Made by a program: the position numbers and the translations under genes. From Polyangiaceae bacterium (lineage in GTDB: Bacteria; Myxococcota_A; Polyangia; Polyangiales; Polyangiaceae): 64,000 bases of DNA. How positions within the stretch are numbered: the first letter of the stretch is position 1; every line of letters starts with the position of its first letter. Below the pieces are notes generated by a model, which saw only the letters and a program-made list of their open reading frames with translations, ran no database searches and was not told where the DNA came from. The DNA is taken from positions 310,001 to 374,000 of the forward strand of contig JAHBVX010000004.1 in assembly GCA_019637295.1 (NCBI GenBank). The letters run 5' to 3'. This document shows, in pieces, positions 40,675 through 61,331 of the stretch.

Positions 40675-43541
40675 TTGCGGCTCCGGGGCTTCTTGGCCGG
40701 CGCCTGCTTGGCCGGCGCCTGCTTGGCCGGCGCCCGCTTGGCCGGCGCCTGCTTGGCCGGCGCCTGCTTGGCCGGCGCCCGCTTGGCCGGCGCCTGCTTG
40801 GCCGGCGCTCTCTTGGCCGGCGCCCGCTTGGCCGGCGCCCGCTTGGCCGGCGCCCGCTTGGCCGGCGCCTTCGTGTCCGGCGCCTTCGTGGCTGGCGCAC
40901 GCGGGCCACGGGCGCGCTTGGGGCGCGGGCGCGTGGCCACGGGCTCCGCGGACTCGGGCTCGGCCGGGACCTCCTCGCTGGGTTCCGGCTGCGGCTCCTC
41001 CGCTCGAACGCCGCCGCCGCGCTCGAGCTTGCCGAGGCGCACCTTGAGCTCGGACAGCTCGCCCTTGACCGCCTCGAGCTCGTCGGTCAGCCGCTTGTGC
41101 TCACTCGTGAGCCGCTCGCCGATGTTGCGCAGCGCTTCGCGGATGCGCCGCACCACTCGCCCATCGAGCTCGCTGCGCAATCGGCGATTGAGCGCCGCGC
41201 GAGAGCGGGGGTCGGCGAGCGACTCGAGCGCTGCCACGACGTCGATGCGCAGATGCGGATTCTGGTCGTCGAGCAAGTCCTCGAGGTGCTCGCGGGTCTT
41301 GCGACCATCCGAGAGCCGTGCGAGCGCGGCGATTGCCGCGCGACGCCCCCGCGCGGGCACGCCGTAGCGCGTGTACTTGCGCACGTCCCCGACGTGTTCG
41401 TCATCCCGCAGGGCGCCGAGGCCGTCCAGCGCCCCGGCGCGCGCGACGTCCGCCCAGCTCGGCCGCTCGAGCAGTTCGAGCAACGTCTTGCCCGCGCTCT
41501 TGTGTCGAGTCTTGCCGAGGGACCTGGCCGCTTCCGCCTCCACCAGGTAGGACAAGTCCTTGCGCGCTAGCCGCGACAGCGCCTTGGCCACCCTGCCCGT
41601 CCGGAAGTTGCCGAGCGCCATGGCTACCGCGCGGCGCACCTTCGGGTGCTCGTCTTCGACCTGTGCGAGCAGCGCGGCCTCCGCCGCCGAGCCACGGATG
41701 GAGCCTAGCGCGCGGGCCGCCTCCGCACGCACCATCCAGGCTTCGCTCGGCTTCGACAGACACGTTGCCAACGCCTCGATGGTCGGCAGATCGTGGCGCT
41801 TGGACAGGGAGCGCGCGGCTTGCCACCGGGCGCGCGCGGGGGTTGCGTCCGCGAGCGCGTGCTTGAGCATGTCCGCCGGCGCCTCGAAGGTGACGTCGGC
41901 GGTGACCTTGAAGTCCGGGTCGAAGGCCACCCAGGTCGGGCGCTCGCCCAGCGCCACGGTCAGGGCGTCCGCCGCGCTGTCTACCCGCTTCTCGAAGCGG
42001 CGCACCTTCCCGGCTGCGTCAGCCACCACCAGCTCCAGCGGGAACGCGAACAGGGGAGTGTCACCGACCTTGTGCGTCTGCTTGACGTGCGCCGTGAGCT
42101 GGCCATCCTCATAGCTCACTCGCACCTTGAGCGCTGGGTGTCCCGGGCGATACACCCAGCTATCGAAGAACCGCTCGAGCGAAGCCCCGCTCGCGTCTTC
42201 GAGTGCGCGCTGCAGGTCGGCGGTCTCCACGATCCCGTGCGGGTGCCGCCGGAGGTAGGTTCGCACGCCCTTCCAGAACAGCTCTTCCCCCAGCTCGCGG
42301 CGCAACATGTGCAGCACGAGCCCGCCCTTCTCGTACAGGTGACGGTCGAACAGATCGATGGGCGCCTCGTAGTCGCGGCACACGATGGGGCGCTGATACT
42401 GGCCGCTCGCTTCAGCGAGGTAGCTCGACAAGTCACCCTCGACACCCCAATCGTATTCGTCTCGCCCCAGGCGGTCCTCGCGCTCCACGTGCTCCATGTA
42501 GGTCGCGAAGCCCTCGTTCAACCAACCGTGGGACCAGTCACGACAGGTCACCAGGTCCCCGAACCACTGGTGCGCCAGCTCGTGGGCGATCAAGTCATTG
42601 CTGGTGACGTCGATCGCGGCACGCTCGTCGAGCAGGATGTGCTCGTACATGGTCGTGGCCGTGGTGTTCTCCATGCCACCGAAGATGAAGTCGTGGACCA
42701 CCACCTGGGAATAGCGGGTCCAGGGGAAATCCACGCCGGTGAGGCGGGAAAACAGCTCGATCATCCGCGGGGTCTCGCCGAAGCTGCGCCGTGCCTCGTC
42801 CTTCTTGCCCGGCGGAACCAGATACTGAACCGGGATGCTGCGATCGCCGATGCGCGCGGGGCGATCCTCGACGACGTCGAAGCGACCCGCGACCAGGGTC
42901 ATCAAGTAGGCGGGGTGGGGTTGATCGAGGCGGAAGTGGTACACCCACGGGTCGCCCGTGGCCGGCGTGTCGGTGAAGACCGGCTCGCCGTTGGACAGCA
43001 CCGTGAACCCGGAAGGCACCGCGACGCGCAACTCGGTCGTCATCTTGACGTGCGGCTTGTCGTGGCAGGGGAACCAGTGACGCGCGTCCTCGTCCTGACA
43101 CTGGCTCCAGACCTGCTCGGGTCGCTCCGGAACCGCCTCGTCGGGGGCGAGGAAGTACAGACCACGCGCCGGAGTCGCGGCGTACTCGATCCGGACCGTC
43201 GCGCGCGCGGCGGACACGGGAACCTTCACGCCGAGGGTGTCGCCGTCGTAGTCGTAGGGGGCATCCGTCAGACCAGAGCCGAGGTCGATCTGCACGCGGG
43301 TGAGGGTGAAGCCCACGGCGTCGAGGCTCAGCGTGTCGGTCTTGGGAGCGACCCGCTCGATGTCGAGCGTGGCGCTCCCGGATACGCGCTTGGCGACGAC
43401 GTCGAGCACCAGATCGAGCGCCAGGTGGCGCACCGAGAACGGCCGGGGACGCTCGTAGTGACGCTTCGCCGAGGTGAGCGCGAACGGCCCTCCGGCAGCC
43501 GAACAGCCACAGCGCTCGTGGTGTCGCTCGCTCCAACGCAT
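40671..43541 (-). CDS. M1 aminopeptidase with HEAT repeats and histone-H1-like tail
   Basis: 956 residues. The N-terminal 450 residues are an M1 (aminopeptidase N) catalytic unit: [10 protein letters not shown] substrate loop, zinc motif [12 protein letters not shown], then the third ligand Glu in [12 protein letters not shown]. Residues about 560-830 are HEAT-like repeats ([16 protein letters not shown] and others). A short coiled coil follows, then about 65 residues of [10 protein letters not shown] repeats ending KKPRSRK. Such Lys-Pro-Ala tails resemble histone H1 and bind DNA or other polyanions. No signal peptide is present. The enzyme should be cytoplasmic. Confidence 0.88.
40690..40870. 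repeat. 15-bp tandem repeats coding for [10 protein letters not shown]
   Basis: About twelve head-to-tail 15-base units of the form GCTTGGCCGGCGCC plus one base, inside the 3' end of the aminopeptidase gene. The units differ mainly at one or two positions (Arg or Gln codons). The length is a multiple of three, so the tail can grow or shrink in frame. Without spacers it is not a CRISPR array. Confidence 0.9.
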
Positions 43542-58689: not shown

Positions 58690-59061
58690 CCTCGGCTCGT
58701 CACACGCCCGACGGAGCGGCACGTCGCGCACGTTCCCGCTAGCGACGACGTCGAGAACTACGAGACGGGGCAGCCCAGGGTCCTGAAGTGGGTGGACCAG
58801 GCCCTCGGTGTCCTGGCCGCTCCGGAGACCCCCTGGCCGGTGTACGTCCACTGCACCTCCGGTCGCGATCGGACGGGCGTGGTCGCGGCGGCAGCGCTCG
58901 TCTTGGTCGGGGTGCCCCGGAGCATCGTGGTCGAGGAGTACTTGCTCAGCGACGGCGGTCTGCGGCCGAACATAGAGCGCGCAATCGACGGCGTGCTGGG
59001 CGGTCGCGCTCGTCTGACCGTGAACGTCACCGCGCTCAGAGTTGCACTCGGTGTTGGGTAG
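58690..59061 (+). pseudogene. frameshifted tyrosine-phosphatase-like gene
   Basis: This frame is open from a TGA at 58687 and has no start codon before the catalytic part. It encodes HVPASDDVENYETGQPRVLK, then the P-loop VHCTSGRDRTGVVAA, the CX5R signature of tyrosine phosphatases, and a helical end (RSIVVEEYLLSDGG). Upstream homology (RGGPAAILSS, ATDLGSSHARR) lies in another frame at about 58636-58710, so a single-base shift seems to split the gene. The GTG at 58792 would leave only 89 residues. Confidence 0.6.
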
Positions 59062-59268
59062 CGTCCCGACTGCCATCCCGGTGGTCGTCCAACCGCGGCG
59101 GCGGTACACTGTCGGTTCGACGCGGGTACGCTCGGGCCCGTCGGCACGCGCAGCGCGCGCTCATGAGGCGGCAACCGACGAACGTCGCGCGCGGCCGTCC
59201 AGCTTGACGTTCGCGGCGTCGCGTGCTTTCATCGCGCCATCAGGTGGGTGACCGACAAGGAGGGCGCG

Positions 59269-59349
59269 ATGTCGAGGCGGACGAAGACGGGCGATAAGCA
59301 GGCAGGCAGGCAGAGCACGTCCCGTGCCAACCTCGTCTCTGCTGGTTGA
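59269..59349 (+). CDS. out-of-frame N-terminus/leader of the secreted protease
   Basis: An ATG with AAGGAGG in front of it opens 26 codons (MSRRTKTGDKQAGRQST, then more) that stop at a TGA overlapping the protease TTG. The frame is one base off that of the protease. It contains the GCAG repeat. It is either a real leader peptide coupled by TTGA or the proper start of the protease shifted out of frame. Confidence 0.5.
   Translation: MSRRTKTGDKQAGRQSTSRANLVSAG
59298..59313. repeat. (GCAG)4 tetranucleotide repeat
   Basis: Four exact GCAG units lie between the best start codon of the protease and its open frame. One extra unit adds four bases and brings the ATG at 59269 into frame. Such repeats are the classic site of slipped-strand phase variation. 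Confidence 0.75.
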
Positions 59350-61331
59350 TAGGGATCACGCTGATCGGGAGCGCGGGGGCGGTGGTTGGCTGTAGCGCCG
59401 GACCGGAGTCCGAGTCATACGATAGCGTGGATCCGACTACGGGCCGCGTGGGGGAGGAGATGGTGTACTGCCCGGATTTCCAGCAGACAATCCCGCAGAC
59501 CACTGCCGCTCCGGAAGGCGCCATCGGGTTCATCAACAACGGCTGCACCGCCGCGCTGATCGACGACTATCACATCGTCACCGCCGCGCACTGCGTCCGG
59601 AACGCGGACACGGGTCAGTGGGATTTTCACGCCACGCCGTATCGCTTCTACCCCAACTTCCACCCGTGTCGGGTGAACCCGCCGCGGTACTCGATCGTGC
59701 GCGCGGTCGCTGGCTACATCGCGGAAGGGAACTTACCGAACGCCAACATGGTTGCGTCGGACTGGGCGATTGCCCGGCTCGGTTGCAGCACCGCACCCGG
59801 CGGCCAGCAGTGGTGCCCGCCGGTCACGGGGTTCCCAAAGGTGTCGTTCCACGGGCGACTCGAGCCCGCTCCGGCGGTAGGCCAGGCGGTCATGCGCGGC
59901 GGCTACGACCGCGATCTGACCAAGCTCGTCCCGCCCCTCACTCCCTTCCACGCGCTGTGCCCGCCCTACACCGACGAGCCGAACTCGTGCGGCGTAGTGC
60001 CGCCGAGTAACTGCATCAGCACCGGCCTTTGCCCTGAACAGGCCAGCGGTTGCAACAACTTCAACAACAACTGGTGGTGGAACCACGGCTTCGTCGATCC
60101 GAGCTGCGCCATCGTCTCGGTGACAAACGACTACCTGGGCACGAGCTGCTCGGCCCGCGGAGGCTCGTCGGGTTCGCCCATATTGATGCAGCACGGCTCG
60201 AAATGGCTGCTCCAAGGTGTGGTGCACGGTACTGCGTTCATGGCGGACAACGTCGCGTGCGTACCCGACGTAGGCGCCAACGTGACCCCCGGCGCCAGCC
60301 TCGCGCGCTTCAGGGATGTACCGCGCTTCGCCAGCAACGTGGCCATGGCGCGACACCAGTCCGGGTCGAACCGCACACAGGTGTGGGCTACCGACAGCGA
60401 AACCGGATCGGTCCGCACGCGATCCCGCACCGGCACCAACCTCACCGACGGCTGGCAGAATTGGGACAACTTTGGCGGGCTGACGCAGGCTGACCGCATC
60501 GCGGCCAGCCGCCTGGCCAACAACTACCCGCAGGTGCTGGTGACCACCACTGGCGGCGGCCTCTTCCACCGCCAGGTGGAGTCCACCGGCTCATGGTCGA
60601 AGTTCACCGCCTTTGGTCAGCCCAGCGGCACGACCATCAGAGACGTGGACGCCGCGACGGATTCCGCCGGCAACCCCTGCTTTTTCGGTGTCGGCAACAC
60701 GGGCCAGGTCTGGCGTCGCAAACGCACGGGATCGGGCGCCTACGATCCGTGGGCCGCCTGGCAGGCGCTGATCACGACGCCCGGCACGAACACCTACACC
60801 AAGGTCACCTCGATCCGCCGCCACGGCGATCTGGTGCAGATGGCGTTCATGCGCACGACCACGGGTGCGGTCCGCTGGATCCAGGAGCCGTTCCCCGCGG
60901 CGTCGCCGTCAGACTTCGGCGCGCCGGCCAGCATCGTCGACCTGGACGCCGGATGGACAAACGACAACCGAGTCATGGTGATCGCGCTCGATGCCCAGGG
61001 CAGCCTGTGGATCCGCGTGCAGCTCGCCACGACCGGAGCCGGCTGGTTCGATTGGATCTCGTTCAATCCTCCGTTCGGCCCGAAAATGTTCACGCCAGCG
61101 AATCAGTGCAACAACAATGGGCTCCCGGGCATCGCGTCAGTCACCGTGAGCCGGTGGCAGGAGAATCCCATCAGCACCGTGGTGCCGGTCATCTTCGTGA
61201 CCGACGACCGGGGCAACGTCTACTACTCCACCTACGAGCAGGGTCCCTGCACGCAAGCCGGCTGCGACTGCAGCGAATGGTTTCAACCGTGGAAGGCCTT
61301 CTATCACTCCAAGCGCTGGGCGGACTACTGA
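59346..61331 (+). CDS. secreted trypsin-like serine protease with lectin-like beta repeats
   Basis: 661 residues from a TTG. Lipobox-like VVGCSAG; the protease part (about 55-330) has the His in HIVTAAHCV, Asp in the SDWAIARLG segment, and Ser in ARGGSSGSPIL. The rest (about 335-640) carries repeats such as TDGWQNWDNFGG and DPWAAWQAL, like the PLL/beta-propeller lectins that follow many myxobacterial proteases. The TTG has no ribosome site and the hydrophobic stretch lacks basic residues before it. See the leader and the repeat. Confidence 0.8.
   Translation: MIGITLIGSAGAVVGCSAGPESESYDSVDPTTGRVGEEMVYCPDFQQTIPQTTAAPEGAIGFINNGCTAALIDDYHIVTAAHCVRNADTGQWDFHATPYRFYPNFHPCRVNPPRYSIVRAVAGYIAEGNLPNANMVASDWAIARLGCSTAPGGQQWCPPVTGFPKVSFHGRLEPAPAVGQAVMRGGYDRDLTKLVPPLTPFHALCPPYTDEPNSCGVVPPSNCISTGLCPEQASGCNNFNNNWWWNHGFVDPSCAIVSVTNDYLGTSCSARGGSSGSPILMQHGSKWLLQGVVHGTAFMADNVACVPDVGANVTPGASLARFRDVPRFASNVAMARHQSGSNRTQVWATDSETGSVRTRSRTGTNLTDGWQNWDNFGGLTQADRIAASRLANNYPQVLVTTTGGGLFHRQVESTGSWSKFTAFGQPSGTTIRDVDAATDSAGNPCFFGVGNTGQVWRRKRTGSGAYDPWAAWQALITTPGTNTYTKVTSIRRHGDLVQMAFMRTTTGAVRWIQEPFPAASPSDFGAPASIVDLDAGWTNDNRVMVIALDAQGSLWIRVQLATTGAGWFDWISFNPPFGPKMFTPANQCNNNGLPGIASVTVSRWQENPISTVVPVIFVTDDRGNVYYSTYEQGPCTQAGCDCSEWFQPWKAFYHSKRWADY

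Follow-up and report, generated by a model that had tools for sequence, protein, structure and literature searches.

In this uncultured bacterium related to myxobacteria, the locus at position 59269 is likely a translational phase-variation (contingency) locus, in which a tetranucleotide repeat between the start codon and the signal peptide would decide whether a trypsin-like protease is made. Its anatomy, the reading frames, the comparison with homologs, a set of similar loci and purifying selection are observed; slippage of the repeat, reversibility, ON/OFF expression and purpose are inferred. The locus is one of a set of genes for lipoproteins and secreted hydrolases, present in this genus and in related ones, that are likewise inferred to be repeat-switched. 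The reading as a phase-variable protease had been proposed in an earlier note on this DNA, and it is supported by the homolog comparison and by the recurrence of the layout on unrelated secreted genes, in both frame states; no change in unit number within a population has been observed. Positions refer to the window, that is, the whole 64-kb stretch of DNA that was analysed, and the elements of the locus are the following:

59204..59232, forward strand: promoter-like TTGACG, 17 nt, TTTCAT, read from the sequence, upstream of the ATG at 59269
59257..59263, forward strand: ribosome-binding site AAGGAGG, 5 nt ahead of the ATG, from the sequence
59269..59349, forward strand: start codon ATG (59269-59271) and short out-of-frame reading frame of 26 aa ending at TGA (59347-59349), the OFF product
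59298..59313, forward strand: (GCAG)4 simple sequence repeat, the proposed frame switch, from the sequence; arrays of other units occupy the same place in the homologs L002 and L008
59323..59328, forward strand: CGTGCC directly past the array, common to other leaders (8/27)
59346..59393, forward strand: hydrophobic signal stretch and lipobox (LIGITLIGSAGAVVG/C) in the protease frame, recognised by eye without a signal-peptide predictor
59346..61331, forward strand: trypsin-like protease frame of 661 aa with a TTG start and a long C-terminal region without Pfam match

The distance from the ATG at 59269 to the TTG at 59346 is 77 nt (25 × 3 + 2), which puts the protease out of frame with the ATG; with a remainder of 2, one extra 4-nt unit would join the two frames. 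Five GCAG units are the nearest joining count, and every third count joins the frames equally. The earlier note had described an ATG with AAGGAGG, a (GCAG)4 repeat and an off-frame protease, had calculated that five units would restore the frame and had noted that the present TTG lacks both a ribosome site and basic residues. Each of these statements holds in the sequence: 77 nt plus 4 is a multiple of 3, and the TTG has neither a purine-rich ribosome site nor a basic residue ahead of the hydrophobic stretch, and it is the only ATG, GTG or TTG in the protease frame before that stretch. Because the promoter-like element lies upstream of the ATG, this codon is inferred to be on the transcript if the promoter is used. 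A repeat was taken as a candidate switch when its unit length is not divisible by 3, it lies in the 5' coding region and it exceeds chance expectation, and (GCAG)4, between the SD-ATG and the signal peptide, satisfies all three. It matches once in the 64-kb window vs not at all in 100 dinucleotide shuffles and is the only period-4 array of at least 15 nt in the window. No tetranucleotide array of at least 16 nt occurred in the first 400 kb sampled of the own genome (G000), and one of at least 15 nt occurred in 800 kb of it, itself at a start.

In the mechanism that we propose, a sigma-70-like promoter and the AAGGAGG/ATG would drive translation into (GCAG)n, and slipped-strand mispairing during replication would alter n. 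With a 4-nt unit, one count in three would connect the ATG with signal peptide and protease (ON); at the remaining counts, translation would stop after a short peptide (OFF), the predicted state of the four units in the assembly. GCAG reads Ala-Gly-Arg-Gln in every frame, and the array is therefore free of stops and supplies a basic stretch suited to stand ahead of a signal peptide. The purpose may be cell-to-cell variety of secreted proteins.

The protease frame contains no internal stop or frameshift over its 661 aa. The match to the trypsin family (PF00089, E 4.3e-5, 23.9 bits vs a cut-off of 20.6) covers residues 65-86 only. His82, Asp139 and Ser275 are invariant across 3 homologs and are inferred to form the catalytic triad. 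Judged by eye, without a predictor, a hydrophobic stretch and a lipobox (VVG/C) stand in the protease frame, and the basic residues are found solely upstream of the frame break. No relative with a solved structure was found by sequence, and a single-sequence structure prediction was uninformative (mean pLDDT 33.4).

An initial scan of the genome contigs with the single protease protein as query gave no match. In 108 family genomes, matches of E 1e-20 or better were confined to the own genome and G055, and a search of 97 genomes returned these two again, plus weak partial matches (E about 1e-5 to 1e-3) in five others. The close relatives are two copies near each other in G055, which belongs to another genus (L002, 59%; L008, 51%). 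Their leaders follow the layout of the 59269 locus, with TTGAC upstream, GGGAGGG, ATG and then a tetranucleotide array, and both unit and unit number differ in all three homologs: (ACAG)5 in L002, (AAGC)3 in L008 and (GCAG)4 in the window gene. In L002 and L008, too, ATG and protease are in different frames, with an offset of 1 as compared to 2 in the window gene, leaving none of the three family members in frame (0/3). The gene frames of L002 and L008 contain no ATG, GTG or TTG in the interval from the last stop to the signal peptide, and these genes therefore have no conventional start in their present frame. In the distant relatives (L290-L292, 30-32% identity), found in two Anaerolineae MAGs and one Terriglobia MAG, the start codon is always in frame and has a ribosome site, and a repeat is absent (3/3). 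The occurrence of the family in these MAGs makes its spread across phyla patchy.

The same comparison bears on translational coupling, in which ribosomes terminating at the TGA of the 26-aa frame would reinitiate at the TTG that overlaps it, so that the protease would be made without any switch. The TTGA overlap at 59346-59349 is compatible with this; however, the short frames of L002 and L008 end elsewhere, no start codon precedes the signal peptide in either, and a signal peptide translated from TTG would lack a basic n-region, which makes coupling very improbable. The earlier note had named a start at TTG by coupling, or relatives with a fixed four-unit GCAG repeat, as outcomes that would refute the phase-variable protease. 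The former finds no support, as the coupling is not conserved, and the latter was not encountered, since the relatives carry other units and lengths and are also off-frame.

The three repeat-bearing protease genes contain no internal stops, and their pairwise dN/dS values are 0.39, 0.38 and 0.33 (0.38-0.39 for the window gene vs L002 and L008). They are thus kept by purifying selection, though all are OFF in the assemblies. The intact 661-aa frame and these ratios speak against the suggestion that the gene was once phase-variable and is now frozen OFF, its array having shrunk to four units and the gene heading for loss. We consider this unlikely, but it has several points in its favor. Four units are near the lower limit, and the (AAGC)3 repeat of gonococcal virG was stable, remaining unchanged on passage (PMC5320596, source available in part); the protease is absent at E 1e-20 from the 106 family genomes other than G000 and G055; and gene-less leaders exist. 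The latter, L025 in G100 and L026 in G014, are protease-type leaders, complete with promoter, SD, ATG and repeat, that lack a protease gene downstream and look as if the gene was lost. The contingency layout is accordingly surer than continued switching of the window copy: because four units are short, and given the stability of the gonococcal (AAGC)3, this copy may switch only rarely and may be nearly frozen OFF.

Pattern searches and sampled genome stretches yielded 36 further loci with a repeat between the start codon and the signal peptide or lipobox, 37 with the window locus (22 tetranucleotide, 3 heptanucleotide and 12 poly-G). The orphan leaders L025 and L026 were left out of this number, while L115/L116 were counted but are uncertain, as a promoter reading (TTGACA, poly-G, TAACCT) also fits. 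Outside the window, 1.2 Mb were sampled, 800 kb from the own genome and 400 kb from G055. Each of the four tetranucleotide arrays of at least 15 nt in this sample is flanked by a start codon on one side and a signal peptide or lipobox on the other (L236, L256, L262 and L263, the last known before the sample was chosen), and the same holds for one of three heptanucleotide arrays of at least 21 nt (L214). Across whole genomes, arrays of (CACG)5 or more occupy this position in 4/4 cases in the own genome (L270, L284, L293, L310) and in 2/2 in G055 (L256 and L262, both already known). Seven loci belong to the own genome, of which L284 and L293 are in frame and the window locus, L214, L236, L270 and L310 are out of frame. 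A (CACG)4 start pattern was seen in five of 108 genomes, plus one unconvincing case, and this restriction to few genomes indicates a trait of a few genera. The 1.2-Mb sample also contained three pentanucleotide runs of 18-19 nt.

The products of the repeat loci look secreted or surface-exposed, their roles being inferred. Besides the window protease family, trypsin domains are encoded at L117, L118, L128 and L074, and other products include an FGE-sulfatase domain, a beta-propeller lipoprotein and an endonuclease/exonuclease/phosphatase domain; matches to matrixin and M43 are weak and below cut-off, and several products match nothing. Read from the sequences, the units GCAG, CACG, ACAG, AAGC, CACT, ATCACGC and CACGCAG have no stop in any frame, and every one codes for Arg or Lys per pass except CACT, which codes for His. 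Judging from these translations, stop-free basic arrays can serve as basic n-region at any count. A broader proposal, which we put forward only tentatively, is that large-genome environmental Myxococcota of several genera possess a phasome, for the most part OFF, made up of secreted hydrolases and lipoproteins, that their clones are mosaics of cells with random subsets exposed, in interactions with prey, phage or kin, and that the units were selected for a stop-free basic n-region in three frames.

Unit numbers differ among related copies. Own-genome lipoprotein paralogs have 11.75 units in frame (L293) and 7.25 out of frame (L310), and a second secreted protein has 9.5, 11.25 and 8.25 units in its G100 paralogs, 6.75 in G014 and 12.75, in frame, in the own genome. 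An ortholog pair has 15.75 units in G100 vs 12.25 in G014, two G014 paralogs have seven vs six CACGCAG units, and poly-G relatives in G017 have G8, G10, G11, G12 and G13, a class that is less certain. Among the 37 loci, offsets 0, 1 and 2 occur 8, 20 and 9 times, so that 8/37 are in frame overall (6/22 of the tetranucleotide and 2/7 of the own-genome loci), and the in-frame L073 and L289 stop early downstream. Random drift expects one third in frame, and the probability of 8 or fewer of 37 is 0.09; offset 1 is in excess (p about 0.03), by a statistic that ignores relatedness. This unevenness is unexplained and not predicted by the simple model. For one set of out-of-frame loci, 10/19 have no in-frame start codon ahead of the signal peptide.

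That offset 1 is commonest (20/37), and that most copies are off-frame yet conserved, would also be expected if the frame were restored in a fraction of transcripts or of ribosome passages, through transcriptional slippage at the repeat or programmed ribosomal frameshifting. A programmed site keeps one direction, however, and the mixed offsets therefore argue against it: no conserved shift direction exists among the protease homologs, where the needed shift is 2 in the window gene and 1 in L002 and L008, and offsets 0, 1 and 2 all occur among CACG arrays. We hold this reading to be extremely improbable. The chance that the gene is really in frame, and looks off-frame only through a mistake of sequencing or assembly in the repeat, is close to negligible: the own genome is a draft of 25 contigs, but the off-frame layout recurs in independent genomes, the array is not a homopolymer, and a read error would not put arrays of different units at one site. 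This doubt weighs more heavily on the poly-G examples than on the tetranucleotide array.

Two motifs accompany the repeat-type leaders. TTGAC was found 25-80 nt upstream of the start in 13/27 of them vs 2% of random 55-nt windows, and CGTGCC within about 10 nt past the array in 8/27, on unrelated genes, vs 3% of random 47-nt windows. CGTGCC can pair with the GCACG that precedes it. A further post-array motif, CAGAGCACNNNNCGTGCC, was considered as a mobile leader and rejected, as its 35 sites in 29/108 genomes are little above a reversed-pattern control; only 4 of the 30 loci examined among these sites are repeat-type leaders, and the motif alone is therefore not an element.

Results on the poly-G class and on one further unit count against the phase-variation reading. 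Of (CAGG)4.5 arrays, present in 8/108 genomes, all of other genera, two are at intact starts (G055, G017), one is in an orphan leader (G100) and five are elsewhere. The 79 runs of G9 or longer in three genomes lie mostly away from lipoprotein starts, and the SD-ATG-G8 pattern, with many chance matches, shows no clear enrichment over a reversed control across the whole family. Among 20 stretches examined from a poly-G screen, L111, L113, L114, L119, L124-L127, L129 and L130 proved to be chance matches, ordinary coding sequence or truncated and were not retained, and L120 and L121 were excluded for lying at a contig edge; outside these stretches, L014, L015, L049, L053-L056 and L274 were also left out.

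Translational phase variation is described for Neisseria gonorrhoeae opa, with (CTTCT)n, and pilC, with poly-G (PMC5320596, PMC13190605, both available in part). As in these genes, the repeat is in the 5' coding part, the frame of a surface protein shifts with repeat length and paralogs switch independently, according to the accessible parts of both sources; the pilC poly-G even lies within the signal-peptide region, comparable to the position near the signal peptide here (PMC13190605, in part). In contrast to our locus, as far as these excerpts go, switching in the gonococcus is observed, in a host-adapted small genome and mostly on adhesins and pili, whereas here an environmental large-genome lineage carries several tetra- and heptanucleotide units on secreted proteases and lipoproteins, with switching unobserved. 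In the contingency loci of Haemophilus influenzae, likewise, tetranucleotide arrays stand within the ORF, either immediately at the start codon or a short way downstream; these loci are mostly LPS-synthesis and adhesin genes for which strain-to-strain unit variation is shown, whereas here the arrays precede signal peptides (PMC2651432, in part). Within myxobacteria, the yellow/tan phase variation of Myxococcus xanthus is also a clonal heterogeneity, but a colony-wide regulatory state, with no repeat tract mentioned in the available portion of the source (PMC4880591). We found no report of SSR phase variation in Myxococcota in the open-licence PMC literature, the only literature covered, and nothing on SSR switching in myxobacteria in the accessible parts of PMC8538405, PMC3711429 and PMC4060949. 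Small-genome pathogens are described as the typical carriers of repeat-driven phase variation (PMC11475388, excerpt), and for bacteria of soil and ocean a review of 2025 sees a gap that has yet to be closed (PMC11868660, excerpt).

The kind of mechanism is thus known from Neisseria and Haemophilus; the bacterial group and the gene class are unexpected, and the scope exceeds one gene, with the same type of putative switch on many secreted-protein genes. If this is true, myxobacteria-like genomes of 7-10 Mb use a repeat switch on secreted enzymes, and a count of repeat units in reads would suffice to test for division of labour and bet-hedging in these bacteria. In annotation, where they look start-less or frameshifted, such genes are easily miscalled as pseudogenes.

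Several minor observations were made alongside. At L149/L202 (own genome, G000:C1:819748-819779), L136/L203 (G055:C2:949860-949892) and L184/L204 (G017:C115), TTGACA and a -10-like hexamer stand upstream of genes with a spacer made up of poly-G (G12-G14), the L136 and L184 genes encoding exported proteins. The pattern occurs in 4/108 genomes (7 rows) vs 1 row in a reversed control, and from sequence these spacers are candidates for promoter-spacing phase variation. The one own-genome site resembles the promoter-spacer switches of Neisseria porA and fetA, which are transcriptional and differ in mechanism from the window locus. In the fragmented genome G017, contigs end in or next to long G-runs at L120, L121 and L194, as if the assembly broke at variable tracts. 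L111 (own genome) and L138 (G055), in two genera, share a near-identical GTCCGCGTG...G9...CACGCGGAC inverted repeat, which is REP-like and not a gene start. Just upstream of the leader in the window, a tyrosine phosphatase fragment (58792-59061, PF13350, E 3e-16, middle to end of the profile only) is possibly a gene remnant. Elsewhere in the window, a tandem repeat at 40692-40898 consists of 13.8 copies of a 15-bp unit (92% matches), which is divisible by 3 and would therefore keep the frame.
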